From IMG/VR virus record IMGVR_UViG_3300043466_003509, positions 1 to 27,231 of that record: a DNA stretch of 27,231 nt; one strand, 5' to 3'. Origin of the DNA: a virus. The position numbers were made by a program, and so were the translations under genes. Below, piece after piece: positions 1 to 15,982 of the stretch. A model generated the notes under the pieces. The model worked only from the letters and a program-made list of their open reading frames with translations. It was not told the origin of the DNA and did not search any database. The number at the start of each line of letters is the position of its first letter. The stretch's first letter is position 1.

Positions 1-6
1 AAATAT

Positions 7-381
7 TCATGCTTTACAGAAATCTCCTTGCTCGTTGGTATAGTATATTTCTTTGAACTCAACATCTTTCAATAGCTTTTGGCAGTGTTTGCAAGGTTTC
101 CCCATTGCCAAATTGTCGTTCCTGTCGATTCGAAAAGTGACCAAAGTATTTCTGGTGTGATCGACTTTGCCAGACTTAATAATTGCACAAGCTTCTGCGT
201 GTAGTCCACTGCCATCAAAATAACCATACTTTTGGTTAATTGGATGCGACTTCTTGGAGTTCTTCCCAATCGAGACTATTTTGTTTTTATTTAAGATAAA
301 AGCAAAGTGACGGCAGCGAAGATCAATGCCGTCATAGATGATTAGGTTTCTGGCTAGTTGAACCAGTCTCTCAAACTTCAT
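7..381 (-). CDS. Cytidine/dCMP deaminase-fold protein
   Basis: A 124-residue protein with the zinc signature of the cytidine deaminase superfamily: His61-Ala-Glu63 (HAEACAI) and Pro96-Cys97-x-x-Cys100 (PCKHCQ). Known members use His and two Cys to hold Zn and the Glu as proton shuttle, deaminating cytidine, dCMP or other bases. The protein is about the minimal length for the fold. The spacing and the downstream 'EIYYTNEQG' resemble small phage and bacterial deaminases more than the longer T4-type dCMP deaminase, so the substrate is not settled. The likely role is pyrimidine nucleotide supply, which fits a genome that also encodes ribonucleotide reductase. A purine-rich AGGGA lies directly before the ATG but is too close to be a good ribosome-binding site. 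It is transcribed away from the tail operon. Fold confidence is high, substrate confidence low. Confidence 0.8.
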   Translation of the reverse strand: MKFERLVQLARNLIIYDGIDLRCRHFAFILNKNKIVSIGKNSKKSHPINQKYGYFDGSGLHAEACAIIKSGKVDHTRNTLVTFRIDRNDNLAMGKPCKHCQKLLKDVEFKEIYYTNEQGDFCKA

Positions 382-402
382 TCCCTATGGGAATACGGTT
401 TC

Positions 403-894
403 TCAAAAGTTGTCAAGCTTTTTGAACTGCAATTTTAGAAAAGAGTCGTTATCCTCCACGACATCACTAAATCCGTAAGTTTTTAATAGTTTTAAAAATG
501 AGCCCAGTCTTTTTCTTTTTTTAAATACATTTACGTAAACCTCTTTGAATCCGCAATTAGCAAATACCTGATATGCAGATTTTTTAATATTATCAGTCTG
601 AGCTACATTAGGATCATGAAACACATAATTTAATTCAATTGATATGCTTGTTAATAGCCTAAAAACAAAAACAGAAATTATTCTGCCATTTGGGGCAACA
701 AAAACAACGGAAGTTTTTGATGAGCCTTGAATATTTAAAGCCATCTCTTTCAAAAACATCGAAGGAGAAACTGTGGAGCTTATCCCAAATGCCCCTTGAG
801 CTTTAACTGCAAGCCTCAAAACTTCTGGGATATCGTTAGTTCTTAATGGGCGAACTTCAAAGGATTCTATTTTTATTTGGTTTTTGGCACCCAT
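403..894 (-). CDS. GNAT-like acetyltransferase (putative)
   Basis: A 163-residue protein. The N-terminus (about residues 13-30, 'EVRPLRTNDIPEVLRLA') looks like the first strand and helix of GNAT N-acetyltransferases. The C-terminal part, with a helix followed by 'LKTYGFSDVVEDNDSFLKL', looks like the closing strands that follow the acetyl-CoA region. No clear Q/RxxGxG/A acetyl-CoA motif is visible, so activity is uncertain and it may bind without catalysing. It lies 21 bp upstream (in minus-strand terms) of the deaminase-fold gene and starts only 29 bp from the divergently transcribed tail gene. There is no Shine-Dalgarno sequence before its ATG. It is a different protein from the second GNAT at 16053-16526. 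The substrate is unknown. Confidence 0.55.
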   Translation of the reverse strand: MGAKNQIKIESFEVRPLRTNDIPEVLRLAVKAQGAFGISSTVSPSMFLKEMALNIQGSSKTSVVFVAPNGRIISVFVFRLLTSISIELNYVFHDPNVAQTDNIKKSAYQVFANCGFKEVYVNVFKKRKRLGSFLKLLKTYGFSDVVEDNDSFLKLQFKKLDNF

Positions 895-895
895 A

Positions 896-910
896 AGTGT
901 AATATATTAA
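896..910 (+). promoter_or_regulatory. Candidate late promoter for the tail-tip operon
   Basis: AGTGTAATATATTAA sits in the 29-bp divergent gap, ending 13 bp before the ATG of the gpL-like gene. It resembles the three GTGTAAATA motifs upstream of minus-strand genes (21086, 24097, 24750) and, more distantly, the T4 late promoter TATAAATA. It differs from the others by one base in the core. It is the only place upstream of the operon where a promoter could sit without lying inside another gene. Confidence 0.4.
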
Positions 911-923
911 AAGGTAAAAGGAA

Positions 924-2495
924 ATGTCAAGGGCGTCAAATCAAAAAGTCAATGCGGAGCTTTTCTCGCTAGAGCCAACAGCTTTGTTGGAGTTCTTCAT
1001 TATTTACTATGATTACATAAACCGCCCAGACGATAAACTTTACATCCACGGCGGAACGAATGGAATTAATGGCTCTGTTTATTGGCAGGGTCAAGAGTAC
1101 CTTCCTTTCCCCATTCAAAGCTCTGGATTTGAATCTAGAGGAGATGGGACGCTTCCAAGGCCAAAGTTGATGGTATCTAACCAAGATTTTTTTGTTTCTA
1201 ACTTAATCAGAAGATACAATAATCTTGTCGGGGCCAAGGTCGTAAGAAAAAGAGTCTTTTTAAAATTCTTGGATGCTGTCAATTTTTCAGATGGCATAAA
1301 CCCTTATGGCTCCGCTGATTCGACAGCGGGATTAGAAGATCAAGTATTTTTCATTTTAAGAAGATCCGCCGAAAATAGGGCAATTGTTGAATTTGAGTTG
1401 GCTTCTCCATTAGAAATAGAAAATGTAACTTTCCCAAGAAGAACTGTAATGGCTAGATATTGCAGTTTTCATTATCGCGGAAATGGCTGTCGGTACATGG
1501 GTCCGCCAATAGCGGATGAAAACGATCAACAGTTAACGGCAAAAGAAATAAAATTCACTTCTGGCTTAATAAGAAGAAGATACAATACTTCGGACAATGT
1601 AGAGCCAAGCAATAGCGCGCAATTTACTAGTAAAATTGCCGCTGCCCCATTTCAAACCCCAGACGGAGAAGATGTAGTTACTTCTATTACAGAGACAGTT
1701 ACCTATAATGGATCTAGCTATAATGTAATTGGATTTCCCGTTTATGCAGCAGATAATTATTACCTTGAGTACCTTGGTTATTTTAAGGTTGATTACTCAG
1801 AAGGTGGAGAATATTATTTTGGGGTTGATCCAGATGATGCTGCGGAAATATTTATTGATGGTAGATTAATTGCTGGAGACTATGGCAAAGGCCCAAGACA
1901 AGGATCAGGGCCGCAAGGAACAACGGGATCTATAGTATTAAAAGAAGGCCACCATAGAGTTTTGGTTCGTTTTTACGAAAACGGCGGCACTCAGAACCCA
2001 AATCCACAAGGATTAACAGTTTTTTATAAAACGCCTGGTTCTTCAACTTGGACTTCGGTTCCAGCGGCGAGATGGTATTACAACCCTTCAGAAAGAAATC
2101 TTTTAACATCGTCTCAAAGATTCTTTTCGTCTTCTCCATTGGATGTTTGGGTTAGTATAGAAATCGCAGCGCTAAGGAATGCGGCAAACAAAGGTTTATG
2201 GAAAATGGACACTAATTATAAAACTGGAGACTATGTTTACATAGAAAATCCACATGTAAAAGTTGCTAAAAAAAATATAAACGAAATTCCAAATTGGACT
2301 CCTCTTTTGAAATTTTACATGTGCGTCAAAACGCATACGGCAACAGGATCAAAACACCCATCGTTCAGTAGAGAATTTTGGGTTTCAGACCAATGCTCAA
2401 AATCCATAAATGGATGCAAGCTCAGATTCGGAGACGATGGAATTTTGCCGTTTGGAGGCTTCCCTGGTACAGAAGAATACGCAATAAACCAATAA
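924..2495 (+). CDS. Minor tail protein, lambda gpL-like, with inserted PA14 and CBM-like domains
   Basis: A 523-residue distal tail-tip protein. Residues 1-195 match the lambda gpL type ('FELASPLEIENVTFPRR' followed by 'ARYCSFHYRGNGC'). The extreme C-terminus also matches ('DQCSKSINGCKLRFG', 'LPFGGFPG'). The four family cysteines, here Cys180, Cys189, Cys491 and Cys498, are those that hold an iron-sulfur cluster in lambda gpL. Between the two pairs lie about 300 extra residues. Residues 270-385 look like a PA14 beta-domain ('YYFGVDPDDAAEIFIDG', then 'EGHHRVLVRFYENGG'). Residues 424-488 resemble a CBM5/12-type carbohydrate module ('TNYKTGDYVYIEN', 'FYMCVKTHTATGS', 'FWV'). The usual gpL is about 230 residues. 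AAAAGG lies just before the ATG, and the stop overlaps the next start (TAATG). The tail role is firm; the sugar-binding role is inferred. Confidence 0.85.
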   Translation: MSRASNQKVNAELFSLEPTALLEFFIIYYDYINRPDDKLYIHGGTNGINGSVYWQGQEYLPFPIQSSGFESRGDGTLPRPKLMVSNQDFFVSNLIRRYNNLVGAKVVRKRVFLKFLDAVNFSDGINPYGSADSTAGLEDQVFFILRRSAENRAIVEFELASPLEIENVTFPRRTVMARYCSFHYRGNGCRYMGPPIADENDQQLTAKEIKFTSGLIRRRYNTSDNVEPSNSAQFTSKIAAAPFQTPDGEDVVTSITETVTYNGSSYNVIGFPVYAADNYYLEYLGYFKVDYSEGGEYYFGVDPDDAAEIFIDGRLIAGDYGKGPRQGSGPQGTTGSIVLKEGHHRVLVRFYENGGTQNPNPQGLTVFYKTPGSSTWTSVPAARWYYNPSERNLLTSSQRFFSSSPLDVWVSIEIAALRNAANKGLWKMDTNYKTGDYVYIENPHVKVAKKNINEIPNWTPLLKFYMCVKTHTATGSKHPSFSREFWVSDQCSKSINGCKLRFGDDGILPFGGFPGTEEYAINQ

Positions 2496-2857
2496 TGAAA
2501 TCTATTATAGATCACGCAAATACATCTGAAATTGAGGTTTGTGGGTTCGTGTTAGTTGAAGACGGCGAATTGAAAAGCGAACCAGCCAAAAACATAGCTT
2601 CGTATCAAAATGATATATTTGAAATACACCCATTGGAAGTAGTTCGTAAAATTAGAAGCGGTAAACTTGCGGCTATCTATCATACTCACCCAAGCTGCGG
2701 AGAACAGGAGTCGAAATTCGACAGATTTAATTGTGAAAATTCTTGCGTTCCTTATTTGATCTATAGCAAGGAAACAAATAAATTTAATTTAATTTTGCCG
2801 AGAAAACCTCATGTAAATAAAGAGTATATTGAAATATTAAGGAAAAACTATGACTAA
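2495..2857 (+). CDS. JAMM/Mov34 metallopeptidase, gpK-like tail assembly protein
   Basis: A 120-residue protein whose start is taken at ATG 2495. That ATG overlaps the gpL-like stop (TAATG), and an upstream in-frame ATG at 2378 would add 39 residues that only shadow the previous gene. It has the complete JAMM signature: a Glu in 'EVCGFVL' and His-x-His-x7-Ser-x-x-Asp in 'YHTHPSCGEQESKFDRF', a Zn-dependent isopeptidase/endopeptidase site. Position between L-like and I-like genes is that of lambda K. Lambda gpK also has a C-terminal NlpC/P60 peptidoglycan hydrolase; that half is absent here, so any cell-wall role would have to come from the JAMM domain or another gene. It overlaps the next gene by 8 bp. 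Confidence 0.85.
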   Translation: MKSIIDHANTSEIEVCGFVLVEDGELKSEPAKNIASYQNDIFEIHPLEVVRKIRSGKLAAIYHTHPSCGEQESKFDRFNCENSCVPYLIYSKETNKFNLILPRKPHVNKEYIEILRKNYD

Positions 2858-5489
2858 TGTATTTTTGTACGGAGAGTTAAGAAATAAATTTGGAGGAGAG
2901 TTTGCATTCAACATCAATTCTGCTAGAGAAGCGTTTTTGGCTGTCAATGCTAATAGAAAAGGGTTTTTAGATGAGATAAAAAAGCTAGCGGCAAAAGGAA
3001 TTTTTTATAGAGTTATAGTTGACGACGAAGTAATAGAGAAAGAAAAACAGCTTCTTATCGCTAAACCTCCTAAAGAGATTCACATTGTTCCAGTTGTGTG
3101 GGGAGCAGGAAGAAATGGGGCGGCAATTGGAATGCTTGTAGTTGGAATAGCTCTTGTAGCTATGACTGGTGGTCTTGCAGCGATTGGAATTCAAGGCATG
3201 TCCGCTTTTGCTGGCGCCACAGCAACTGCCGCTGCTGGCTCATTGGCTGGAGCCGCAGGATTTGTCGGTTCTCTTGGTATGGCGTTAGCCGTGCAAGGCG
3301 CAATGACCCTTCTTTTCCCGCCTCCAAAACCTGACTTTAATCAAGAAGTTCAAGCTGGCGGTAAGTCTTATTTGTTTGGCAATAAACCGTCTAACGCTTC
3401 TCAAGGTCAAGCTGTACCAGTCGGCTATGGAAGACTAAAAATAGGATCTTCTCAAATAAGTTCAAGCGTTGATCATTACGGAATAAACGCAGACGTAAAG
3501 CAGCTAATGGCTCCTGTAGATAAGCCAATTGATGATTACACTCAGTTAGAGTTTGCTGATGAGCAAGAGCTTACCCAGCAAGATTCATTTTCGACCAATC
3601 AGTCTGCTATCTTTGAAGAGCCATTAAACATTTACTACATAAATGTATTAAACTCTTACATAGACATTCTGACAAAAAGTGCAGAAAAAGTAGTTTCTAG
3701 ACCTGTTGAAGTTGTTGTAAGAAAAAATACAGAAATAATTTCTAATCCAGATCTTCCAACTTATGATGCGGATATAAAATATCAGTGGGAAGAGGTAAGC
3801 ACAGACGCTTCCAAAGGACAAGTTAGAATAGAAAATCCATATTCTTTTAAAACAGGAATAATTTTAAGATCGTATCACTCCCCTGATTTCACTGTCACGA
3901 ATGATTATGACAATATAACAAACATTGATCCAAGCTATTTTACTTCTTATGAAGTTGGAGATTTAGTAAGATTTGGGCCTCAGCAATTTTATAAATCAAA
4001 ATTTCTTTCTTACGACGCTAGCTATGAATATAGAAGTGGAGAATTAGTTAATTATCCGACAGGAGCAGACACGGAGACATTTTTTCAAGCCAAAGAAAAT
4101 GACAGAACTGGTTTCTCTGGTCTTACCCCAACTGGTAGTAACGGCTTAGTGAGGACAGATTATTGGAGAAAAATTCTCCCGCCTCCTTTAGAGTATTTGT
4201 ATAAATGCACTGCCACAGTAACTGGACATTTGCCAACCACTGGTGCATTAGACGCAAACGGAGCCCCAATTGCAGAAACTAATTTTTGGACAAGGGTAGA
4301 ATCGCCCTCTAACACAGAGCAGATGAACACTTTGTTTAAAGATTACCCATCTTACACTGATAATAAACAATTCGTTCATGTTGGAAACTTTGATGGCTTA
4401 AACGAACCAGGGATCCAAGGTGTAAGCTCTAATTTAGATAATTATGGAATGGAGTTTCTTGGATATTTTTATGTCTCGGTCGCTGGCAGAATAAAGAGTG
4501 TTTATGAGCTGGGGACTGCCCAAGGCGCTTATGAAATAATTAAAGTTGGTAATACTGGTCAATGGAGCGGCCTTGGTTTAACTGGTCAAGGAGGAGTCGC
4601 ATTAACTCCAAGAATAGGCGCGACATTCAATAAAACTGCGACACAAGGAGCCAGCGATGGCAAAGTAGCGCAAGTTGCCGAGTTTCAATTCAAACTGGAT
4701 TCTGACGATGCTGCGGATTTATTTATAGATCAAAGTGGAGTTTCTACATATTATGGTGGGCATGGAATGTATTCTGGATTTGCAAATCCACTAAACCCAA
4801 CAACGGGAGAGATACATGCTCTCCATTCAACAGTCAATCCAATTTATTTAACCGCTGGCTATCATCGTTTATACGCTAGAGTTCAAGATTCTAGAGGGGC
4901 AGAAGGAATAACTATCTACCATAGATACGATACAGATAGAAATGGATCATATTCAGATTGGGCAGTACTTCCAAAAGAAAAGATTTTTTATTCAAATGAT
5001 GACTTGCAGTTCCCAAGAGATGAAAAATTCTTGGAGCAAGGAATTTCTGGATATATAACCCCAGCAGATGGACAGGGAGAAAGAATGGTGAGCGGGCAAA
5101 GTTATAAAATAATAGTTCCAAGCTCAACTTCTTGGACTCAATTAGGAGCAGCTTCTTCAGCCGCTGGGACTGTATTTTATTACAATGGAGGTGATGCTGG
5201 AACTTCGGACGCCAACGCAAGAGTAACAAAAGATTTTGTAAATTATGCCCAACAAAATTCGGCAGAATCAAATAGGCTTGTCAGATTTGTAGCTAACAGA
5301 AGAGAAGTTAACGGTTCTGTAGACAATGGTTATGCAACTTATAAAGCGAGATATGTTTGTAAGGCAACCATAGGTGATAGAACTACAATTTCTGCATCTC
5401 CTGTAAGAATGAATGTTAGATTTATTCCAATGGAGCTTTCGAGAGGAACTTCTAGAGACGCATTCTTGCCGCCTCAATCTCAAGTTTAA
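2850..5489 (+). CDS. Tail assembly protein, gpI-like core with long carbohydrate-binding extension
   Basis: An 879-residue protein. Residues 1-210 match the lambda gpI family: an N-terminal ubiquitin-like segment ('LYGELRNKFGGEF'), 'IHIVPVVWGAGRNG', a glycine/alanine-rich hydrophobic stretch (about 92-156), and the closing 'QAVPVGYGRLKIGSS'. Lambda gpI is about 220 residues, so some 670 residues are added. The extension contains CBM5/12-like pieces around 365-450 ('YEVGDLVRF', 'YLYKCTATVTG'), a second PA14-like domain around 600-715 ('FQFKLDSDDAADLFIDQ', 'AGYHRLYARVQDSRG'), and a module around 747-793 ('SWTQLGAASSAAGTVF') common in phage structural proteins. AAGGA seven bases before the ATG is one of the few good Shine-Dalgarno sites here. 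The extension turns an assembly factor into a likely virion surface component; that is inference. Confidence 0.8.
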   Translation: MTNVFLYGELRNKFGGEFAFNINSAREAFLAVNANRKGFLDEIKKLAAKGIFYRVIVDDEVIEKEKQLLIAKPPKEIHIVPVVWGAGRNGAAIGMLVVGIALVAMTGGLAAIGIQGMSAFAGATATAAAGSLAGAAGFVGSLGMALAVQGAMTLLFPPPKPDFNQEVQAGGKSYLFGNKPSNASQGQAVPVGYGRLKIGSSQISSSVDHYGINADVKQLMAPVDKPIDDYTQLEFADEQELTQQDSFSTNQSAIFEEPLNIYYINVLNSYIDILTKSAEKVVSRPVEVVVRKNTEIISNPDLPTYDADIKYQWEEVSTDASKGQVRIENPYSFKTGIILRSYHSPDFTVTNDYDNITNIDPSYFTSYEVGDLVRFGPQQFYKSKFLSYDASYEYRSGELVNYPTGADTETFFQAKENDRTGFSGLTPTGSNGLVRTDYWRKILPPPLEYLYKCTATVTGHLPTTGALDANGAPIAETNFWTRVESPSNTEQMNTLFKDYPSYTDNKQFVHVGNFDGLNEPGIQGVSSNLDNYGMEFLGYFYVSVAGRIKSVYELGTAQGAYEIIKVGNTGQWSGLGLTGQGGVALTPRIGATFNKTATQGASDGKVAQVAEFQFKLDSDDAADLFIDQSGVSTYYGGHGMYSGFANPLNPTTGEIHALHSTVNPIYLTAGYHRLYARVQDSRGAEGITIYHRYDTDRNGSYSDWAVLPKEKIFYSNDDLQFPRDEKFLEQGISGYITPADGQGERMVSGQSYKIIVPSSTSWTQLGAASSAAGTVFYYNGGDAGTSDANARVTKDFVNYAQQNSAESNRLVRFVANRREVNGSVDNGYATYKARYVCKATIGDRTTISASPVRMNVRFIPMELSRGTSRDAFLPPQSQV

Positions 5490-5490
5490 C

Positions 5491-6393
5491 GTGAAAATTT
5501 TAAATCCATATAGATTTTACAGAGGAGGCAAAGGAGAAACGGATACTCCTGCGCTGGAACCACCAAGAAGGCAAGATCTCAGAAGGTCTATTTCGATTTC
5601 AGAAAGCGTTGATGTTCTTTGTGAAGGGCCGATTTATGGCCTTGTTGATAAATTTGGCAAAAAAGTATATGGGTTGGATATGTTAAAAGGCATTTATCTG
5701 AATAAAACTCCAGTTATGAACGCAAATGGAGAATATAATTTCAGAAATGTTTCAATGGAAATTAATCTTGGAACTGAAAACCAAAAGCCTTTGGCAAACT
5801 TTAGAAATGTATACATAATGAAGCCCGCTTCATTTAAGCTTTTAGGTCCAATAAATAATCAACTTACTCCAGATGGCTCAATTGATAAAAGATATAGCAA
5901 TGGAGAAAAGGGCGTTCCAGCAGTAAGAAACTTTTCTGATTGGGCTGCTGGTTGGCCTACGCAGCCTCAAGACCCATTTGTTTTTGTTCATCAAATACGA
6001 AACAAAGATGTTAAAAAAATAAGAATAAGTCTTCTTGTTGAAGCTTTATTCGATACCGTAGATATTGGACAAGGCGGAAAAGGAAAAGATATTGGTCTTA
6101 GTAAGCCAGCTACTGTTAAAATTTTAGTAAAAACGGGCGTCGATGGGGCGGCTCCATTTCAAGTTAAAGAATTTCCAATAACAGGAACAGCGCAAGCTCC
6201 TTTCGCGCTAACCCTTGGAGAACAAATTTCTCAGCCATTTGGACAAGGAACCTACAGATCAATTGGAGGAGGTGGCGCGGGAGGTATGATACTAACAGGG
6301 CCAACTGGAGGCTCATTCTCTGGCTTTAGAGACTTTTACGGAAGCATTTTTTATAAAGAAAAACTGCCAGTAACACCGTTTGTTTCATCATAA
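5491..6393 (+). CDS. gpJ-like tail tip protein, N-terminal part (split gene)
   Basis: A 300-residue protein matching only the N-terminal domain of lambda gpJ-type host-specificity proteins: 'RRSISISESVDVLCEGPI', 'KGIYLNKTPVMNANGEYNF', then 'EINLGTENQKPL', followed by the region of 'KIRISLLVEALFDT' and the IxGT stretch. It stops where canonical gpJ would run on into the hub domain. The remainder is found 590 bp downstream in a separate gene (6984-12623). The start is chosen at GTG 5491, one base after the gpI-like stop. An in-frame ATG at 5413 would add 26 residues that look like an out-of-frame shadow of the previous gene. No Shine-Dalgarno sequence is seen, so translation is probably coupled. 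It ends in a Gly-rich tail (GGGGAGGM). Very likely a structural tail-tip subunit. Confidence 0.8.
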   Translation: MKILNPYRFYRGGKGETDTPALEPPRRQDLRRSISISESVDVLCEGPIYGLVDKFGKKVYGLDMLKGIYLNKTPVMNANGEYNFRNVSMEINLGTENQKPLANFRNVYIMKPASFKLLGPINNQLTPDGSIDKRYSNGEKGVPAVRNFSDWAAGWPTQPQDPFVFVHQIRNKDVKKIRISLLVEALFDTVDIGQGGKGKDIGLSKPATVKILVKTGVDGAAPFQVKEFPITGTAQAPFALTLGEQISQPFGQGTYRSIGGGGAGGMILTGPTGGSFSGFRDFYGSIFYKEKLPVTPFVSS

Positions 6394-6394
6394 A

Positions 6395-6967
6395 ATGCAA
6401 AATCAAAAAACAATAGAAGAGATTATCGCATCTAGCATAAAGCCTAGAAATTATTCTGATATTTTGGCGATTATTTATAATTTGAGAAAAAGAGAGAAAA
6501 AGGACTATTTCCCGCAGGCTTTTCAGAAAAATATCATTAGCTCTACAGCCATTGGTGACAGCGGGACTTACAGTGTATTTGACGCAATCAACTCTTCGTA
6601 TTCAAGAAGCTCCACAATGACTTTGGCAGGAAGAGCCAGCTATGCGGAAACAAATGGGGCGACAGTTGTAGAAAAAAAAGCAATAGGCATTTTTGCATGG
6701 ATAGACGTAAATCGCCAAGGATCTCCATTTTATTTGCCAGAGGCTAAGTCCATTCAGTGCCCAGGCTCTCAAATTCAAAGCAATGGGCAATTTTCTTTTG
6801 ATGTCCCAGCCTCGATTATGCAAAGTTTAAGCTTAGGAACTCATTACATATATATTGACGCATCTTCTCCAGATAATCCAGCAGTAAGGTTGACTGCTTC
6901 TGGAACAGGCACAGACCCAACAAACTTGTATACTTACAATGTAAGAAGCTTTACAATAACTGCTTAA
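6395..6967 (+). CDS. Small beta-rich protein inserted between the two gpJ parts
   Basis: A 190-residue protein that I do not recognise as a whole. The start is taken at ATG 6395, one base after the previous stop (TAAAATG). Residues 1-45 are predicted helical and basic ('IIYNLRKREKKDYF'). The rest is beta-rich with Gly and Ser. The C-terminal half ('NGQFSFDVPASIMQSLSLG' then 'THYIYIDASSPDNP') resembles an Ig-like beta-sandwich found in surface proteins. It has no signal peptide. It sits exactly in the gap of the split gpJ and in a third reading frame, so it was probably inserted as a free-standing gene, and its product may sit at the junction of the two J pieces in the tail tip. No homing-endonuclease motif (HNH, GIY-YIG, LAGLIDADG) is visible. 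Confidence 0.65.
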   Translation: MQNQKTIEEIIASSIKPRNYSDILAIIYNLRKREKKDYFPQAFQKNIISSTAIGDSGTYSVFDAINSSYSRSSTMTLAGRASYAETNGATVVEKKAIGIFAWIDVNRQGSPFYLPEAKSIQCPGSQIQSNGQFSFDVPASIMQSLSLGTHYIYIDASSPDNPAVRLTASGTGTDPTNLYTYNVRSFTITA

Positions 6968-6983
6968 AACTTATAATATATAA

Positions 6984-9900
6984 ATGAGTGATCCGAACGA
7001 AGGTGGAAACGGTGGAGAAGATGGCGATGTAGTAGATCAATATCTACAAATATCGTCCAACGAAATAGTTTTGCCAGAATCAGTAAATGGAAAAGATAGG
7101 TATGTAACTATAGAAAAAATCTCTGCGGAAACAGTTTCTCCTTTGATAAAAAAGGATGTTTCCGTTGACTCTATCTATGAAATCATAGATAGAAACTTTT
7201 CGTACCCATTAACAGCCCACGTTGGATTAAAATTTGACTCAAGAAGCTTTTCTCAAGTTCCAGCAAAAGAGTTTGATGTCAAAATGAAAAAAATTAAAGT
7301 CCCTTCCAATTACTTTCCAATTGGAGGAGATGGATTGGATAGGCGATATGTATTTTCTAATCCAGACTATCCAGCAAATCCAACGACTTTAGATGCGGTA
7401 TTTATTGTGGATCAAAACATGAATTCTGCAACTCGCGCTCTTTTGAGAAGAAATTTGCAGTCGTTTTTAACAAAATTAATTGCTGGATATACAAATGTAA
7501 GATTCTCAATTTGGCAAACGGCTGCATCTGGGATTAATACAATAATTAATGAAAAGACAGGTGATACTATAAATGGATTCACCTATTATGATTCTTACTT
7601 CTTTAAAGAGGTAGAAACTCCAGATTCGACTGGAGCTAATCAAACAAATCTTTATAAATTATTAGATTCCGCACTTGGAGCAGCGCAATTAAGCCCAGCA
7701 ACGAATCCAGATGAAACAATAATCACAAATTTCTTCCTTAGAAAGAGTCAATTTTCAATTACTGATGAAGTCGGCAAAGCTTCAGAAGCGTCTTTGCTGC
7801 AATCAATTTGGAAAAATACCGTAAGAAAAATAATTTATTTTTCTGGTTCTACTCCAGAAGTAATGCAGCCGACAACATATAACTTGTTGCTAAATCAAGC
7901 TGCTGAAAACGGAATTCAAATATACTATTTAAATACAGATCCAGATTTTTCTGGAACAAGAACTTTAAGAGAGTTGGCAATAGAAACTGGAGGTGCCAAA
8001 TTTAATCTTGGGCATGATTCAGACATTAAGCTTCAGCAATTCTGTGACACTAATTTTTATGATAGCAATAAGATTTATTACGGAGATTGGGACGGAACGT
8101 TCAAAATGGCTTGGACTGACAACCCTGCTTGGATTTTGTATGACATAATTACAGATTTTAATTATGGTCTTGGAAATTTTATAGATTTAGGATCTGTTGA
8201 CAAATGGAGCTTATATGATATTGGGCGTTATTGTGATGCAGTAGATGATGATGGTAGATTTAAAGGAGTGCCAGATGGTAAAGGCGGGCTTGAACCAAGA
8301 TATACGTGTAACATAATTTTTTATAATAAAGATGAAGCTTACAATATATTAAAAGACGTAGCTGCTATCTTTAAGGGCATAGTCTATTGGAATACAGAAG
8401 GGTTTTCTTTTTTTGCTGATAGGCCAAAAGACCCTATTATGTATTTCGCAAATGCGAATATTAAAGATGGGGCTTTTCAATATACTGAAACGGCAAGAAA
8501 CAAACGATATACCGCAGTTGAAGTTGTATACAACGATAGATACGATGACTACAAAACAAAAATGGAGTTTGTGGAGGATGTCGATGGCATAAGAAAATAT
8601 GGATTAAATCCATTTAAAGTTAATGCCGCTGGCTGCACTTCAAGATCAGAAGCAAAAAGAATTGGTCGATACATATTATATAGTTCAATATTTGAAGCTG
8701 ACAATGTAAGTTTTACAGCAGGAATCGAGGCCGCATATCTACAACCAGGAGATATTTTTGGCGTTAGCGATGAAGTCAGAAATATTGGCAGAACTTTCGG
8801 AAGAATATTAGCAGTTGACCAGTCTTCAAATTCAATCAAGATTGATGGAGAATTTAAGGCTCCAACAGCGCAAGATCCTTATGGTCTAGATTCGGGCGTA
8901 TACATTCACATTCCGTCTGGAAATTTTGCTGTTTCAGATTTAAACGCTCTTACTGGCAGCGATGGAGATTTTACTGGAACTCTCGCTCAAATTAGATCAA
9001 GAAGACAGACGCAAACAAGAAAATTTAATATACATACGGTAAGCGATGATCCATACGGAGCAACATTAACATTAACAGGGGATTTTTGCCTTCAGAACGT
9101 CGTAACTGACGTATACCCTATAGAGGGAAGAATTTCTGGCGCAAATTATACTGGTCAGACGCTTTTAACTGGATCTGTATACAATTTCCCGAATCATGTC
9201 GTTGCTGGAGGTAATCCAAGATGGGATTCTTTAAGCTTCTCTGATGTCTCTGGTGTTCTTTCTGATTTTGAAATAGACATCGATTTTCTTGGAACCGCTG
9301 GAACTGGACAAGTGATTGGAAATGAAACGAATTGGACTGGCAATATCGCTTATTCAATTTCTTCAAATTCAGTTTTTAATATTAATGGTTCAACAGCTTT
9401 ATCTATAGGAACAAGTCAGACTTATGCGGCAAGAATAAGTGCCGCTGGGACGGTGACTGCATCTGGAGCAATATCTGATTTAAATGCAATATTTGCTAAT
9501 GCTATATATGATAGCGCAAGTAATGGAGATGTGGTTATTGTGTTTACAAGAGGAACACAGGTAAGCAATCAATTCGTGCCAAATTCAACTTGGGCATCTC
9601 TTGCAGCGACAGAAATATTTAAAATTGGGAAAGACAACACTAGTTCTGCAACAGCTAATTATGGCTATGCCTGTGCATTAATCAAAGGTGGGTATAGAGT
9701 TTTAGAAAGGGCTTCCAAAACCATTGGAGAATATGGCAACATATTATTTACTTATAGAGACCTTTTAGCTTTTTCTAGATTAAGACCATACTACACTTTT
9801 GTTCAAGCTGATTTTGGAAACAGAAATGAATCTAGCCATTTAGAATGGGTGAAGGGTGTTGGTTATTCTGTAGGAGATGTAGTAAAGGTAAGTTCAGTTC

Positions 9901-12623
9901 CATACATATGTACAAAAGCGCATACTTCTAGTAACACATTCGCAGAAGATTATGACGCAGGAAGCGCATCAAAATCAAAATGGAGCTTAGGAAATAATCT
10001 AGGTTTTTATACAGTTGGATTGCCAAAAAATTTTTACGGCACAGAAAAAATTTATCTAGACACTTCTTTAACTTCTACTCATGTCTCTAATGCTTTTAAA
10101 TCTTTAGGATTAGATGTTTATGTTGGAGCGGGGACTCTAGGCCAAACAGATTTAAGAACGTTGGCGGAATCAAATGGAATTGGCTACAGCGGCCTTATTT
10201 ACGGAACTGGGTATCCGAGAGGCTTTTATAATTTATCAGTTGACACAAACCCAAGAAATCTTGATTTAATCAAAGAAGGTTCTCTTTATGTATTAAGCGG
10301 TTCTGGCGTCGAACCAAAATTGTATAAAACTATTGCTATAAAAGAAGAAGAAGCCAATCAATACGGAGTAGTTGGAATTGAATATATTGCAGATAAGGAG
10401 GAATTCATAGAAAAAGATATTATTGATACATCCCCAAGTTATTATGTCAGGGGTCCATATGACGTTGTAATTAAACCAGAAAAGCCAAGTGCGATAACTT
10501 CTACTGGCGTATATCAAGAAACAGGCTTATATTTTACTTGGAATGCTAGCGTGAGCCCAATTACAGGGTATAAAGTATATGTAAGTAGGCCAGATTACTC
10601 TACGACAAACGAATATGATTCTATTACCGAATCTTATTCTGTTCCATCTGGAACAACAACTTTAACTATTCCAATTAATGGAATATACGGAGCTTACGAT
10701 ATAGATGTTTATTCGCAAGGAGTTCAATACAAATTGCTTTCAACCGATCCAGCATCAACAGGAGTGGTGCTTTTGCCAACTCCAACGTTATCAATTGAGG
10801 GAGCGACATTAACTTCTACAATACCAAGCGGATTAACTATTGATACAGCAGATGTAGACAGCGTATATTATCGATTAACATATAGCGCCACACATTCTGG
10901 ATTGGGCGCTGGTAATTTTACATCTTCGGACGTAACATTCCGCTGGAAGTATATTGACCCAACTGGAGGGGTGATCGGCACAATAGAACAAATGCTCGAA
11001 AATCCATTCATAGATCTACCACCAAAAGTAACGCTTCATGTTTTAGATCAAGCTGGCAATATAGTTGACGAGATAAAAGAATACCAAGGATTTTCTTATA
11101 CTATAACTAAGAAACAAAATGCAAAACTATTTAGTAGAGAAAAAGACAATCCAAGAGATGTCGATGCCTCTAGATATTTGGGCTTGAGATTAACCGTAAC
11201 AGACAACACAAATCAAACAAAAACTGGTACTTTATACGCTTATAATATTTTACCACAATACACAAATATCGAAGTAATTGATTCTTATCAAAACTCCCCT
11301 TACTACATACTTTCTGGATATTATGGGCACAGTACGTTTACTGGAATAGCGCTTTGGAACCCACAGAACAATACGACCACAGGAATAATCTCAGGATCTG
11401 GCGTAAGAAATTGGACTGGCGGAGCGAATTATTTGTTAAGAAGCGAAGATGAATCAAGAGAGATTTATTTTCAAGATATTTCTGGAGCTTTTCTAAGTGC
11501 AACAGGCTACAACGGAACTGGCATAACAGCGACAGCCACAAGAAAAGGAGTTGGAATAAATTTCAGAGGAACGGGAGAGCCAGATTATGAAGCATACGCT
11601 TACGCTTACGATGACTTAATAACTCATTACAATACATACATAAACAAAAGTATGCCACTTGCGGTATGGGCTAAAGATCACTACGAAAAAAATGTCATAG
11701 GAGGTAATAACGAACCAAGAGTTCTACCTAGGACAAAAAATAATCCACTAGGAATTGCAAATTTAAGTGAAATTACTGCTCCAAACGCCACTGGCTTTTC
11801 TGGGATCGCCTTCACCACTTTAACAGAAAATATATCAAAGGGTGAAATTATATTTAATTGTTATGCTGTAACATCAAATAAAGATGTGTATGGCGTTGAT
11901 ATTTATACTGGAAGTTCGCCAAATTTCCAACCAGACACTTCTGAGGCATCATCTAATATGTTTATGTATATGCCTCTTGAAAAAACAAGAGCTTATTCTA
12001 ATACTATAGCTTTGGGAGCGGGGCTTGAAACTGGTATTTGGTATTATTTTAAATTTAGACCTTGGGATGATTTTGGCGAAGGAGAGATGTCTAATGCGGT
12101 AAGCGGATATTTAGAAGTTGAACCAGGTGAGCCTGTTATAACAAAACCAAATACTTTGTCATTAGATGGCGGTAGAGGAGAAGTTAATCTAATAGATATT
12201 CATAAGCAAGCCTCTTTAATTAGGGGAAGAAAGTATCAAATTAGACTTTTGGGAAGCACTGTTAATTGGACGCAAATAGGAGCAGAATCTGCTATCGTTG
12301 GAACAGAATTTATTTATAATGGAGGGACAATAAGTGGTAGTGGAGGCTTTGTAAAAAGAGTAGAAGTTAAAACTACGCTTTTGCCCAGTTATCTTAATTC
12401 AATTATTTTAGTTTCCCTGCAAAGTGATTCCACGTTGATTCTACCATCTGATGTGCCAGAGGGTTCAAAAGTTATAATTATCAACAGAAGGAACCAAAAC
12501 AATCTCTACGTAGAAGATGCAAATAGAAATCTTATTTCCATTGTCCGTAAAAACGATAGGGCCGAGCTAATCAGAGATGAATCTGAGTGGCTCGACCCTA
12601 GAGGAGACCCGATTTACGTATAA
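6984..12623 (+). CDS. gpJ-like tail tip hub and receptor-binding protein, C-terminal part, with VWA-like insertion
   Basis: An 1879-residue protein. Residues 40-112 and 362-620 match the lambda gpJ hub ('NFSYPLTAHVGLKFDSRSF', 'KVPSNYFP', 'YYGDWDGTFKMAWTDNPAW', 'TDFNYGLG', 'GCTSRSEAKRIGRYILY', 'YLQPGDIFGVSDE'). The hub is interrupted at 135-358 by a von Willebrand A-like domain: Asp143-x-Asn-x-Asn in place of DxSxS, Thr221, 'RKIIYFSGSTPEV', 'AAENGIQIYYLNT', 'LRELAIETGGAKF'. Further modules are an ILEI/PANDER-like segment (about 740-912), a CBM5/12-like module (952-1003), at least one FN3-like domain (about 1165-1280), a 'NWTQIGAESAIVGTEF' module (about 1755-1775) and a C-terminal beta cap. It starts with an acidic Gly-rich stretch and lacks the usual J N-terminal domain, which lies in 5491-6393. 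No Shine-Dalgarno sequence. Its stop directly abuts the nrdB stop on the other strand. Confidence 0.9.
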   Translation: MSDPNEGGNGGEDGDVVDQYLQISSNEIVLPESVNGKDRYVTIEKISAETVSPLIKKDVSVDSIYEIIDRNFSYPLTAHVGLKFDSRSFSQVPAKEFDVKMKKIKVPSNYFPIGGDGLDRRYVFSNPDYPANPTTLDAVFIVDQNMNSATRALLRRNLQSFLTKLIAGYTNVRFSIWQTAASGINTIINEKTGDTINGFTYYDSYFFKEVETPDSTGANQTNLYKLLDSALGAAQLSPATNPDETIITNFFLRKSQFSITDEVGKASEASLLQSIWKNTVRKIIYFSGSTPEVMQPTTYNLLLNQAAENGIQIYYLNTDPDFSGTRTLRELAIETGGAKFNLGHDSDIKLQQFCDTNFYDSNKIYYGDWDGTFKMAWTDNPAWILYDIITDFNYGLGNFIDLGSVDKWSLYDIGRYCDAVDDDGRFKGVPDGKGGLEPRYTCNIIFYNKDEAYNILKDVAAIFKGIVYWNTEGFSFFADRPKDPIMYFANANIKDGAFQYTETARNKRYTAVEVVYNDRYDDYKTKMEFVEDVDGIRKYGLNPFKVNAAGCTSRSEAKRIGRYILYSSIFEADNVSFTAGIEAAYLQPGDIFGVSDEVRNIGRTFGRILAVDQSSNSIKIDGEFKAPTAQDPYGLDSGVYIHIPSGNFAVSDLNALTGSDGDFTGTLAQIRSRRQTQTRKFNIHTVSDDPYGATLTLTGDFCLQNVVTDVYPIEGRISGANYTGQTLLTGSVYNFPNHVVAGGNPRWDSLSFSDVSGVLSDFEIDIDFLGTAGTGQVIGNETNWTGNIAYSISSNSVFNINGSTALSIGTSQTYAARISAAGTVTASGAISDLNAIFANAIYDSASNGDVVIVFTRGTQVSNQFVPNSTWASLAATEIFKIGKDNTSSATANYGYACALIKGGYRVLERASKTIGEYGNILFTYRDLLAFSRLRPYYTFVQADFGNRNESSHLEWVKGVGYSVGDVVKVSSVPYICTKAHTSSNTFAEDYDAGSASKSKWSLGNNLGFYTVGLPKNFYGTEKIYLDTSLTSTHVSNAFKSLGLDVYVGAGTLGQTDLRTLAESNGIGYSGLIYGTGYPRGFYNLSVDTNPRNLDLIKEGSLYVLSGSGVEPKLYKTIAIKEEEANQYGVVGIEYIADKEEFIEKDIIDTSPSYYVRGPYDVVIKPEKPSAITSTGVYQETGLYFTWNASVSPITGYKVYVSRPDYSTTNEYDSITESYSVPSGTTTLTIPINGIYGAYDIDVYSQGVQYKLLSTDPASTGVVLLPTPTLSIEGATLTSTIPSGLTIDTADVDSVYYRLTYSATHSGLGAGNFTSSDVTFRWKYIDPTGGVIGTIEQMLENPFIDLPPKVTLHVLDQAGNIVDEIKEYQGFSYTITKKQNAKLFSREKDNPRDVDASRYLGLRLTVTDNTNQTKTGTLYAYNILPQYTNIEVIDSYQNSPYYILSGYYGHSTFTGIALWNPQNNTTTGIISGSGVRNWTGGANYLLRSEDESREIYFQDISGAFLSATGYNGTGITATATRKGVGINFRGTGEPDYEAYAYAYDDLITHYNTYINKSMPLAVWAKDHYEKNVIGGNNEPRVLPRTKNNPLGIANLSEITAPNATGFSGIAFTTLTENISKGEIIFNCYAVTSNKDVYGVDIYTGSSPNFQPDTSEASSNMFMYMPLEKTRAYSNTIALGAGLETGIWYYFKFRPWDDFGEGEMSNAVSGYLEVEPGEPVITKPNTLSLDGGRGEVNLIDIHKQASLIRGRKYQIRLLGSTVNWTQIGAESAIVGTEFIYNGGTISGSGGFVKRVEVKTTLLPSYLNSIILVSLQSDSTLILPSDVPEGSKVIIINRRNQNNLYVEDANRNLISIVRKNDRAELIRDESEWLDPRGDPIYV

Positions 12624-13679
12624 TTAAAACTTCATATCAAACACAGATTCATCGATCTTATTGTCAACGCCTTTGACATAAGATGAGATTTCTGTCTCTT
12701 GAGGGGCTACTTGGATCTTTTTGCTGTCATAGAAGCTGTCTAGCCAGCCAGCAAGGGGATTGCCCTTGACATTATAAATCTTTTTATAACCCATCGAAGT
12801 AAGTCTATTGTCAGCGAGCCATTCAACATAACGCTTTAAAGAATCAGCAGTGAGGCCAATTAGACTACCCTTTGAGAAAAGATAGTCGGCCCATTCCTTT
12901 TCAGACTCAACGGCCATTCTATAGGCTTCATAGATCTTATCTTCGTTCTTTTTAATGATATCTTGGAACCCTTCCTTTGGCTGATCACGAAGGGCTTTTA
13001 AGATATTTTGAGTGATAGCAACGTGAAGATTTTCGTCACGGGAAATAAGATTAATAATCTTAGCGTTGCCTTCCATCTTTCCACGATAGCCAAAGTAGAA
13101 AGAGCAGGCAAAGGAAACGTAAAAGGTTACGCCCTCAGTGATCTGGGTTGCAAGAAGAGCCTCAAATATCTGCTGCTTTGGATCGTCGCTCTTTGTATTA
13201 AGCAAGGCGTCATAACGACTGGAGATGGCTTGAGCCCTCTTTACAATCTCCTTATCTTCCAAGATTGAATCAAAGAATTTAGTAGCATCTGGGTGAACAT
13301 TCTGGAGAATATATGTATAACTATTGCTGTGGACAGTCTCAAAGAAAGACCAAACGTTCATGCAGATCTCAAGCTCTGGGTTGCTTACGTAATCTGAGAG
13401 CGAATTAATGCTGCGGGACAGCATAGAATCTGTCATTGTTTGGAACCGCAGATTACTATCGAATACGAACTTCTCTTCTGGAGAAAGCATTTTATAATCA
13501 GCGGCATCCTTTGTAAGATTTACCTCCTGTGGACGCCAGAAAAAATTAATCTGCTGATCGTACAGTTCGTAAAACTTAGGATACTTGAGGCGATCATATC
13601 GCTGGATAGCCAAATCTTCTCCGAGAAAAAGCGGCTGCTTGAGCGAATCTAGATTAACGGTGTTAAGGACAGTTTTCAT
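12624..13679 (-). CDS. nrdB: Class Ia ribonucleotide reductase, small subunit
   Basis: A 351-residue R2 subunit that generates the tyrosyl radical used by NrdA to reduce ribonucleotides. Diiron ligands match E. coli R2: Asp84, Glu114, His117, Glu182, Glu216 and His219 ('FQTMTDS', 'FFETVHSNSY', 'ITEGVTFYVSFACSF', 'RDENLH'). The radical tyrosine is Tyr121. The C-terminal tail 'DNKIDESVFDMKF' is the kind of peptide that docks R2 into R1. The start is taken at ATG 13679, two bases after the nrdA stop; an upstream in-frame ATG at 13709 would add ten residues inside nrdA. No ribosome-binding site is seen, so translation is probably coupled to nrdA and gives balanced subunits. The gene is complete and convergent with the tail operon, with no bases between the two stop codons. 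Confidence 0.96.
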   Translation of the reverse strand: MKTVLNTVNLDSLKQPLFLGEDLAIQRYDRLKYPKFYELYDQQINFFWRPQEVNLTKDAADYKMLSPEEKFVFDSNLRFQTMTDSMLSRSINSLSDYVSNPELEICMNVWSFFETVHSNSYTYILQNVHPDATKFFDSILEDKEIVKRAQAISSRYDALLNTKSDDPKQQIFEALLATQITEGVTFYVSFACSFYFGYRGKMEGNAKIINLISRDENLHVAITQNILKALRDQPKEGFQDIIKKNEDKIYEAYRMAVESEKEWADYLFSKGSLIGLTADSLKRYVEWLADNRLTSMGYKKIYNVKGNPLAGWLDSFYDSKKIQVAPQETEISSYVKGVDNKIDESVFDMKF

Positions 13680-13681
13680 TG

Positions 13682-15982
13682 TTATAGGGTGCAAGCTCCA
13701 CCGGCACATCCTTCGGTTTCTTCTTGCGGTTCTGGTTGTGGTTGTGGTTGTTGTACTTCTTTTTTGGTGTGCAGAACTGTCTGAGTATCTCCATCAAATG
13801 TATTTGTGTAATAGAGATTCTTGATTCCGTATTTATAAGCAAGCAGAATATCCTTTACAAGCTCAGTTTGAGGAGGAATTTTGTTTGGATATCTGGTAGT
13901 ATTGTAATAAAGATTCGTTGAGATACTCATATCAACGAACTTCTGAAGAGCAGCAACTACCTTGAGATACCCTTCGTTGGTTGGCATTTCAAATGCCAAA
14001 GTGTAGTCTTCCTTATGCTTGTCAATAGCAGGCACAACAACGGGCATTACGCCAGCCTTTGATCTCTTGAACGAGATAAGGGACCGTGGAGGCTCAATAC
14101 CGTTAGTGGACGATTGAATTACAGAGCTTGACTCTACAGGCATCAAAGCGGTGAGAGTGCTATGGCGCATTCCGTATTGCTTGATATCTTGACGAAGAGC
14201 CTCCCAATCACAATGAAGCTTTTCCTTTACAAACTCATCGACGCTCTTGCAATAGTTGTCAATAGGGAGGATGCCCTTTGAATATTTAGTTAGATTAAAT
14301 TTGGCGCAAGTGCCTTTTTCTTTTGCCAAACCAACGGAAGCCTTGATAAGATTATAGCTGACAAGCTCCATTATGGCAGCAGCCTTATTTGGCGCTTGCT
14401 TATCAAAATATTTAATCTTATTTTTGGCAAAGTAAGCAGCGAGGTTTGTTACGCCAACGCCAAGACTGCGACGATTCTTTGCAAAGTTTGCTGCGGCAGG
14501 AACGAAATAATCTTGGTGATCAATAAGTTCATCAAGCATTCTTACGATGACATCGCAGACTGATTCCATTTCGTTTTCAGAAACTTCTACCAGATTAACG
14601 GCAGAAAGAATGCAGACGCCGATTTCACCATTTGGATCATTAACATCATTGATTGCCTTCAAGGGATGATTTACTTCAAGGCAAAGATTGGATGTATCGA
14701 CTTGTTCTAGCCAAGCGCCATGAGAATTTGCATGGTCTACATTCATCGCGTAAATACGCCCAGTCTCTACACGCTCCTTTGAGAAAAGGAACAGAAGCTC
14801 TCTGGCGTTTACAGTCTTTTTGAACTTGATCTTGGGATTGTTCTCTGCGGCTTCGTAAAGCTCCTTGAACTCTGGCATTCCGAAATTATTCCAAAGCTCA
14901 GGAACTTCATGATATGAAAACAGAGTGACATTCTTATTCGACATTGCACGATCATAGAACAGGCGATCAAAGCCAATGCAGTAATCGAGCTTGCGAACGC
15001 GATTGTCGTCTGTGCCAGCATTGTTCTTTAGAACAAGAATATCTTCAATATCATGATGGAACCAAGCTACGTTAACTGTTGCAGACCCGCCTCGGATTCC
15101 ATTTTGATGACAGCTTTTTACCGTGGACTCAAACATCTTCAAGAATGGTACTGGTCCGGTATGACTGACCATGCCGCCCTTTACTGGGCTATTGACGGCA
15201 CGAATACGGCTAGCATTAATGCCAATACCATAGCGACTTCCAGTAGCGAAGCCAATTGCGCTATTGTTTGCAAAGATTGAACCAAGAGCATCATCTACGG
15301 TAAACAGGGCACAAGACGCATATGACTTCAGCGTTGTGCGGACGCCTGCCATGATTGGAGTTGGCAAATTGATCTTGTGCTGGCTGAAGTAGTTATAAGC
15401 CTTTTTAATATAATTGATTCTGTCGTTCTTATAGCTCTTGAAGAACGTCATAGCAATAAGCATATAAGCGAACTGCGGGGTCTCGTAGATTTTCTTTGTG
15501 GTTCTGTTCTGAACCAGATATTTCTCACAAAGCTGCTTGATGCCAGCATATGTGAAATTAAAATCATTATTATGGCGCAAGAACTCATCGAGCTTGTGAA
15601 ACTCGCGCTCGTCATACCAATTTAAAATATCTGGATCGTAAACCTTTAGCTTGATATTCTCCTTGACAAAATCAATAAGCTTTGGCGCATTCTTGCCTCC
15701 CCAGACTTCCTTTCTAAGCTGAAAGTTAAGAAGTTTAGAAGCAACGTATTGATACTGAGGCTTTTCTTCAGATATCAAACCTGCGGCAGCTTCAATAAGC
15801 GTATTGTGGATATCCTTTGAGGATATGCCATCAAAGAATGAAAGATTGGCGTTCATCGCAACTTCCTCAAATGAGGTATCTGGAACATCTTCGCAAGCCC
15901 AAGCCAAGACTTTGTTAATCTTGTCAGCATCGAACTTTACGACTTCTCCGCTTCTCTTCTTAACAGACATTGTTTTTTTCAT
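13682..15982 (-). CDS. nrdA: Class Ia ribonucleotide reductase, large subunit
   Basis: A 766-residue catalytic subunit that converts NDPs to dNDPs. An N-terminal ATP-cone (about 5-95, 'VKKRSGEVVKFDADKIN') suggests allosteric activity control by ATP/dATP, which many phage enzymes lack. Active-site residues are present: Cys224 ('SYASCALF') and Cys457 ('GEIGVCILS') as the disulfide pair, Asn432-x-Cys434-x-Glu436 ('TSNLCLEV') for the thiyl radical, and a Tyr-Tyr pair in 'KNLYYTNTFDG' for radical transfer. The C-terminal Cys759-x4-Cys764 ('GCAGGACTL') is the usual relay to thioredoxin or glutaredoxin, reached through a Pro-Gln-rich flexible linker. Two ATGs are possible (15982 or four codons later); neither has a Shine-Dalgarno sequence. 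It forms an operon with nrdB. Confidence 0.96.
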   Translation of the reverse strand: MKKTMSVKKRSGEVVKFDADKINKVLAWACEDVPDTSFEEVAMNANLSFFDGISSKDIHNTLIEAAAGLISEEKPQYQYVASKLLNFQLRKEVWGGKNAPKLIDFVKENIKLKVYDPDILNWYDEREFHKLDEFLRHNNDFNFTYAGIKQLCEKYLVQNRTTKKIYETPQFAYMLIAMTFFKSYKNDRINYIKKAYNYFSQHKINLPTPIMAGVRTTLKSYASCALFTVDDALGSIFANNSAIGFATGSRYGIGINASRIRAVNSPVKGGMVSHTGPVPFLKMFESTVKSCHQNGIRGGSATVNVAWFHHDIEDILVLKNNAGTDDNRVRKLDYCIGFDRLFYDRAMSNKNVTLFSYHEVPELWNNFGMPEFKELYEAAENNPKIKFKKTVNARELLFLFSKERVETGRIYAMNVDHANSHGAWLEQVDTSNLCLEVNHPLKAINDVNDPNGEIGVCILSAVNLVEVSENEMESVCDVIVRMLDELIDHQDYFVPAAANFAKNRRSLGVGVTNLAAYFAKNKIKYFDKQAPNKAAAIMELVSYNLIKASVGLAKEKGTCAKFNLTKYSKGILPIDNYCKSVDEFVKEKLHCDWEALRQDIKQYGMRHSTLTALMPVESSSVIQSSTNGIEPPRSLISFKRSKAGVMPVVVPAIDKHKEDYTLAFEMPTNEGYLKVVAALQKFVDMSISTNLYYNTTRYPNKIPPQTELVKDILLAYKYGIKNLYYTNTFDGDTQTVLHTKKEVQQPQPQPEPQEETEGCAGGACTL

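Follow-up and report, generated by a model that had tools for sequence, protein, structure and literature searches.

At a turn of its conserved hub, the gpJ-type central tail-tip protein encoded in the window (here meaning the whole stretch of viral DNA analysed, 27,231 nucleotides of IMG/VR record IMGVR_UViG_3300043466_003509) carries an insert whose predicted structure almost certainly represents a von Willebrand A (VWA) fold. The protein in question, gpJ-C (6984..12623, + strand, 1879 aa), is without the N-terminal part of gpJ, which is found as a separate gene (5491-6393), and belongs to the gpJ-type tail hubs, whose profile its HDII-HDIV core matches significantly. In fact, the PHROG 31 profile ('central tail fiber J') matches gpJ-C with an E-value of 4.6e-114, and a PDB search returned lambda gpJ (E 2.3e-58). 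A weaker front match covers the end of the HDII-insertion region (residues 25-112; 7056..7319, +; aligned to residues 178-266 of the J-like gp24, chain 23gd_D, and to residues 188-251 of lambda gpJ) and stops at residue 112 with the letters KVPSNYFP, after which gpJ homology resumes at residues 362-363 and continues through the Phage-tail_3 or gpJ HDII-HDIV region (residues 363-629; 8070..8870, +; lambda gpJ 254-516; PF13550 E 3.2e-21 on residues 450-609). As the alignment leaves only residues 252-253 of lambda gpJ between these two matches, the insert comprises residues 113-362 of gpJ-C (7320..8069, +; about 250 aa) in place of a two-residue turn, and it is in frame within the open reading frame. 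Within it, the VWA-fold domain delineated by the AlphaFold2 models and fold searches spans residues ~133-358 (7380..8057, +), a close fit to the 7387-8060 proposed in an earlier note on this DNA, whose quoted peptides are all present.

Certain other features of the gene were also noticed. Just 5' of the gpJ-C start (6964-6984) lies an AT-rich leader, TTATAATATATAA, that has no Shine-Dalgarno sequence; most relatives have a comparable AT-rich leader. A weak CBM_5_12 match, under the cut-off, occurs at residues 954-984 (9843-9935; E 0.00055), and a repeat-like segment with 46% identity is common to gpI (residues ~746-781) and the gpJ-C C-terminus (residues ~1745-1781), these being WTQLGAASSAAGTVFYYNGG and WTQIGAESAIVGTEFIYNGG, respectively.

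To describe the predicted fold, the domain modelled alone with AlphaFold2 (pTM 0.81, pLDDT 76) shows strands and helices alternating in VWA order. In gpJ-C numbering, the first half of the model consists of a strand (135-142), helices (148-166), two strands (171-179 and 185-201), and helices at 221, 244, and 268, with the second half being made up of a strand (280-286), helix (296-309), strand (311-317), helix (328-334), strand (338-341), and helix (347-357). When the hub segment was modelled, the insert was the only confident part, with the pLDDT elsewhere mostly < 50. A search of the PDB with Foldseek gave a best E-value of 3.7e-7 at a probability of 1.00 and moderate TM-scores (~0.5), with TFIIH p34/p44, Sec23/24, vWF A1/A3, integrin beta headpieces, and inter-alpha-inhibitor as the top matches. 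Using VIA-align 2, the domain model gave a Z-score of 14.5 (181 residues, 3.6 Å) and the in-context model of the insert one of 15.4. The matches listed in these PDB searches are VWA-containing structures, and the top matches in BFVD are predicted viral proteins annotated as VWFA. Thus, the VWA-like domain that the earlier note had placed inside the gpJ hub recurs in two separate predictions, both of which lead in fold searches to VWA-containing structures, and the alternating alpha/beta arrangement is accordingly present as a prediction.

Sequence comparison by itself offers weak evidence for VWA membership, and points the same way as the fold. The curated Pfam cut-off was not reached: PF00092 found no match in the window record, and the best homologue, from locus L026, matched it at E 0.0011 along the first strand and helix, its score of 19.7 bits falling short of the 23.8 required. 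Searched alone against Pfam, PHROGs, and PDB sequences, the insert gave only chance matches (Condensin2nSMC 0.032; influenza haemagglutinin 0.03). Weak alignments were likewise obtained when the insert profile was compared using hhalign with two single VWA proteins from E. coli, and one of these, too weak to be relied upon, would pair DTSGSM with DQN--M, making the MIDAS loop two residues shorter. A predicted fold of another kind or a profile match to another family, which the earlier note had named as the outcomes that would tell against its reading, did not turn up, and PF00092 was the only sensible hint of a curated family.

A single IMG/VR search with the insert as query found 64 loci that carry all or a portion of it at this very site, and where the upstream part of the locus is complete, the spacing between the gpJ-C start and the start of the insert is similar. 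In the profile search, 110 stretches were confirmed and 80 kept, and 58 distinct insert sequences entered the alignment. Identity to the window ranges from 100% down to ~46-49% for the insert, and the VWA-domain alignment is a shallow one (46-97%), with the PSNY-to-WDG length nearly constant throughout (261-271 residues). An assembly artefact or chance origin was ruled out, as the insert is in frame and recurs at this same place in so many contigs. No insert homologue was found among 50,697 records of cultured phages at the sensitivity used, and two scans of bacterial and archaeal genomes at their sensitivity likewise found no relative and therefore provide no prophage or host lead. The VWA insert is a feature of an uncultivated group of tailed phages.

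Looking at the residues that would form the metal site of a VWA domain, the first MIDAS-like motif is D143-Q-N145-M-N147 (7410..7424, +), in which D143 and N145 are invariant (58/58 each) and the fifth position varies (N in 39, D in 8, G in 6, T in 3, and S in 2 of the 58 inserts). The canonical DxSxS of the first loop is thus replaced by an invariant DxN. The second-loop Thr of the canonical site seems to be supplied by T221, as assigned from its position in the model; it belongs to the Q220-T221-N222 loop (7641..7649, +), where T occurs in 54/58 (Q in the other 4) and N222 in 58/58. At the site of the canonical VWA Asp-Gly, the loop after strand 4 reads S287-G-S-T-P291-E292 (7842..7859, +), and an Asp is found in 0/58, the position being occupied by Ser (54/58) or Gly (4/58). 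Further residues invariant across the 58 inserts, besides N222, are P213, D214, G217, P291, T327, R329, E330, and D347. The degenerate MIDAS described previously (Asp143-x-Asn-x-Asn, with Ser/Gly for the usual Asp) is therefore real and conserved, and the residue pattern indicates a metal site that is altered, not randomly eroded. With the usual MIDAS Asp missing after strand 4, a metal ion may or may not take part.

How the insert evolves was compared with the rest of the protein. Averaged across 17 full-length relatives, identity to the window is 72% for the preceding hub, 71% for the insert, 79% for the hub core, 61-67% for the next parts, and 49% for the C-terminus. Pairwise dN/dS for the insert is 0.04 (L005) and 0.07 (L007 and L008, for which synonymous changes are near saturation), as against 0.03 for the hub core and 0.12-0.16 for the C-terminal 239 residues. 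The VWA domain is under purifying selection, unlike a changing receptor-binding tip. Since it evolves like the hub and not like a fast-changing fibre, we favour a role as a structural clamp, or in holding on to a conserved partner, over variable receptor binding.

A survey of gpJ homologues at this site, as suggested earlier, recovered the same-site insert in the VWA clade and short and extended loops elsewhere. It covered 228 distinct gpJ sequences gathered in several kinds of search, some aimed at relatives, and so is a non-random sample in which the PSNY-to-WTxNPAW distance is 22-32 in 107, 36-50 in 66, 67-70 in 2, 264-280 in 47, and 404 in 1, with 5 unassigned. The hub loop hence has a short (22-32 aa), an extended (36-50), and an insert (264-280) form. 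Two of the 47 sequences in the longest class contain a different, unrelated insert in the same loop. They come from two phages that each have a tandem pair of gpJ paralogues (L358, orf 3-6482 and 6876-10427; L382, orf 1972-7497 and 7896-12401), the first copy with a mid-length loop and the second with this unclassified insert of ~220 aa. An hhalign comparison of the L358 insert with the VWA profile found no similarity except in the shared flank. The 404-residue case (L238:2643-3854, -) has a LamG domain (Laminin_G_3, PF13385 E 5.8e-12) directly after the WNG motif and before WTDNPAW, adjoining the VWA site. Other phages therefore carry different domains at or beside the VWA loop, and this one gpJ turn is a natural and recurrent insertion site.

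In a quick tree built from the part of the hub that follows the insert, a single clade (SH-aLRT 99) unites the 11 true VWA representatives and is nested in a group of 40 rows with mid-length loops (SH-aLRT 98); L358 and L382 are placed in another part of that group. The long-loop relatives L205 and L237 have flanks (...DKRYY...IYxGDWDG) in common with the VWA form, and so the VWA domain looks to have been added to a loop that was already lengthened.

In these phages, gpJ itself is split. The separate gpJ-N gene (5491..6393, +), found in 20/20 relatives compared, matches PHROG 31 at positions 268-381 (E 2.7e-13) and, weakly, FNIII-A_GpJ (E 0.0035). Between it and gpJ-C lies a middle ORF (6395..6967, +) that is conserved in the clade and has no assigned function, aside from a weak GEVED hint (E 0.011), and this order of the three genes is kept in 20/20 relatives compared. 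Residues preceding PSNY number 104-118 in 10/10 stop-closed VWA-clade representatives with a complete upstream part, and at least 240 in every other closed representative surveyed. Thus, the split gpJ and the VWA insert mark the same clade. The insertion and the split were probably each a single event in one clade, and for this reason their association is not independent evidence. In a deep branch (L061:7575, L087:5301, and L089:5887), gpJ-C begins with MKxLNPFRF, which resembles the gpJ-N start MKILNPYRF in L008:6126, L030:6097, and L040:6144, a likeness hinting that the split may have come from a duplicated gpJ.

Upstream of these genes are a gpL-like minor tail protein (924..2495, +; PF05100 E 3.8e-58), in which residues 251-359 form a PA14 domain (1674-2000, +; PF07691 E 6.8e-7), and a gpI-like tail assembly protein (2850..5489, +; PHROG 32 E 6.1e-32 on residues 1-208) that is enlarged to 879 aa and whose residues 611-715 match a stretch related to the gpL PA14 protein. 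Immediately after gpJ and in the reverse orientation (12624-15982, -) are genes for the large and small subunits of ribonucleotide reductase, the large one being ~51% identical to that of marine cyanophages. Farther along (21584-23665, -), a protein with three Laminin_G_3 stretches (E 4.1e-48) matches phage structural and baseplate families.

The VWA fold is best known for gripping proteins, and animal cells hold proteins together with von Willebrand A domains; TFIIH p34 and Sec23/24 are examples of scaffolding VWA domains. As prediction and alignment show for its fold and site, a VWA-fold protein-interaction domain has been grafted into a permissive and probably exposed gpJ turn, at the junction of the HDII-insertion region and HDII, where by analogy with lambda three copies would surround the tail tip. 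It would most likely act as a structural or docking module, gripping a constant partner with its top face, where the conserved D143-x-N145 and T221 loops lie. The likeliest such partner would be another protein of the split-hub tip, namely gpJ-N, the middle-ORF product, the PA14-bearing gpL, or the enlarged gpI. That the VWA domain is the phage's variable receptor-binding tip is improbable. We rank clamping or docking first on three grounds: the domain is conserved, the hub is split, and the best matches include scaffolding VWA domains. This explanation as a whole we hold only tentatively, at somewhat under an even chance. The narrower suggestion, that the VWA domain with its altered and conserved metal site is a non-covalent clamp (or an integrin-like grip) by which the split hub can function, is more doubtful and, if anything, unlikely.

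Ranked a close second is an auxiliary adhesin, for the reason that a lectin-type domain is among the insertions that other phages have beside this site or at its equivalent. Here, the VWA domain would bind a host-envelope protein or glycan that is conserved, helping to hold the tip to the cell until the central fibre has engaged the receptor, which we consider a real, if lesser, possibility. Agreeing with this are the recurrent use of the loop for insertions (the adjoining LamG in L238 and the other inserts in L358 and L382), the PA14 domain at the same tip, and the retention of D143, N145, and T221 under purifying selection, and the LamG domain at the neighbouring loop hints away from a clamp and toward adhesion. 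However, the low dN/dS and near-constant length give no sign of diversifying selection, and with the strand-4 Asp lost, classic metal-dependent adhesion is not to be expected unchanged.

A part in tip assembly, or in keeping the tip shut until HDII and its insertions shift on receptor binding, is ranked third after the clamp and adhesin and seems improbable. Two things speak for such a role. One is the position of the insert at the HDII-insertion/HDII junction, given that these domains of lambda move by rotation on tail opening (PMC11101478). The other is that VWA proteins serve in virion assembly elsewhere, as in Acidianus two-tailed virus, whose tail reportedly depends on a MoxR-VWA pair (PMC7824862). 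Yet no MoxR-type partner was identified in the 27 kb fragment, and the AAA protein at its end is of the ClpB/AAA_2 type. Least of all do we expect the insert to be an alpha/beta domain of another superfamily that merely resembles VWA, or a functionless and decaying passenger. The weak sequence-only evidence would allow for this, but the VWA-containing structures among the listed fold-search matches, the dN/dS of 0.04-0.07, and the invariant residues across 58 inserts make it very improbable. A VWA domain fixed clade-wide inside a conserved hub widens the range of modules that phages use at the tip. Moreover, as the insert accompanies a hub split into separate genes, how the broken hub holds together becomes a directly testable question, and the movement of the lambda HDII-insertion (PMC11101478) makes clamp, adhesin, and gating all testable in one structure.

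No description of a VWA domain in a gpJ hub, tail tip, or central tail fibre was found in the open-access literature, in keeping with the earlier remark that the arrangement was not known as a described one, and the same literature yielded no account of a VWA clamp with a split hub for any phage tail. Phage VWA proteins are described in other roles (CobT, MoxR-VWA, and Ter; PMC8651126, PMC7824862), and the additions to lambda-type hubs described in that literature are Ig, FNIII, and OB domains (PMC10721106, PMC11101478, PMC13243795).

With the VWA superfamily (TFIIH p34, Sec23/24, vWF A1, integrin beta-I, and Rpn10; PF00092), the insert shares the predicted fold, strand-helix order, first-motif Asp, and Thr loop, but differs in its non-canonical MIDAS (DxN, variable fifth position, and Ser/Gly for the strand-4 Asp) and in a Pfam score below the cut-off. 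With lambda gpJ and relatives (PHROG 31, PF13550), it shares the same hub on both sides, and lambda gpJ too has inserted domains, namely an Ig-like FNIII-A in the HDII-insertion part and a beta-sandwich/OB in HDIV (PMC10721106, PMC11101478). In contrast, lambda gpJ has the two-residue turn at the site, whereas here gpJ is divided between genes, with an insert of the alpha/beta rather than the beta-sandwich kind. The HDII-ins3 of gp32 from Salmonella phage Jersey (PMC13243795) is likewise an extra domain on a gpJ hub and is proposed to be host-facing, though it is Ig-like and located in an N-terminal extension, as opposed to a VWA fold at the hub turn. Finally, the evolved Dit and Tal proteins of siphophages (PMC10688798, PMC6669499) follow the same principle of an adhesion-type domain on a conserved tip scaffold, with carbohydrate-binding modules and another scaffold (that of Gram-positive phages) in place of the VWA domain on gpJ seen here.
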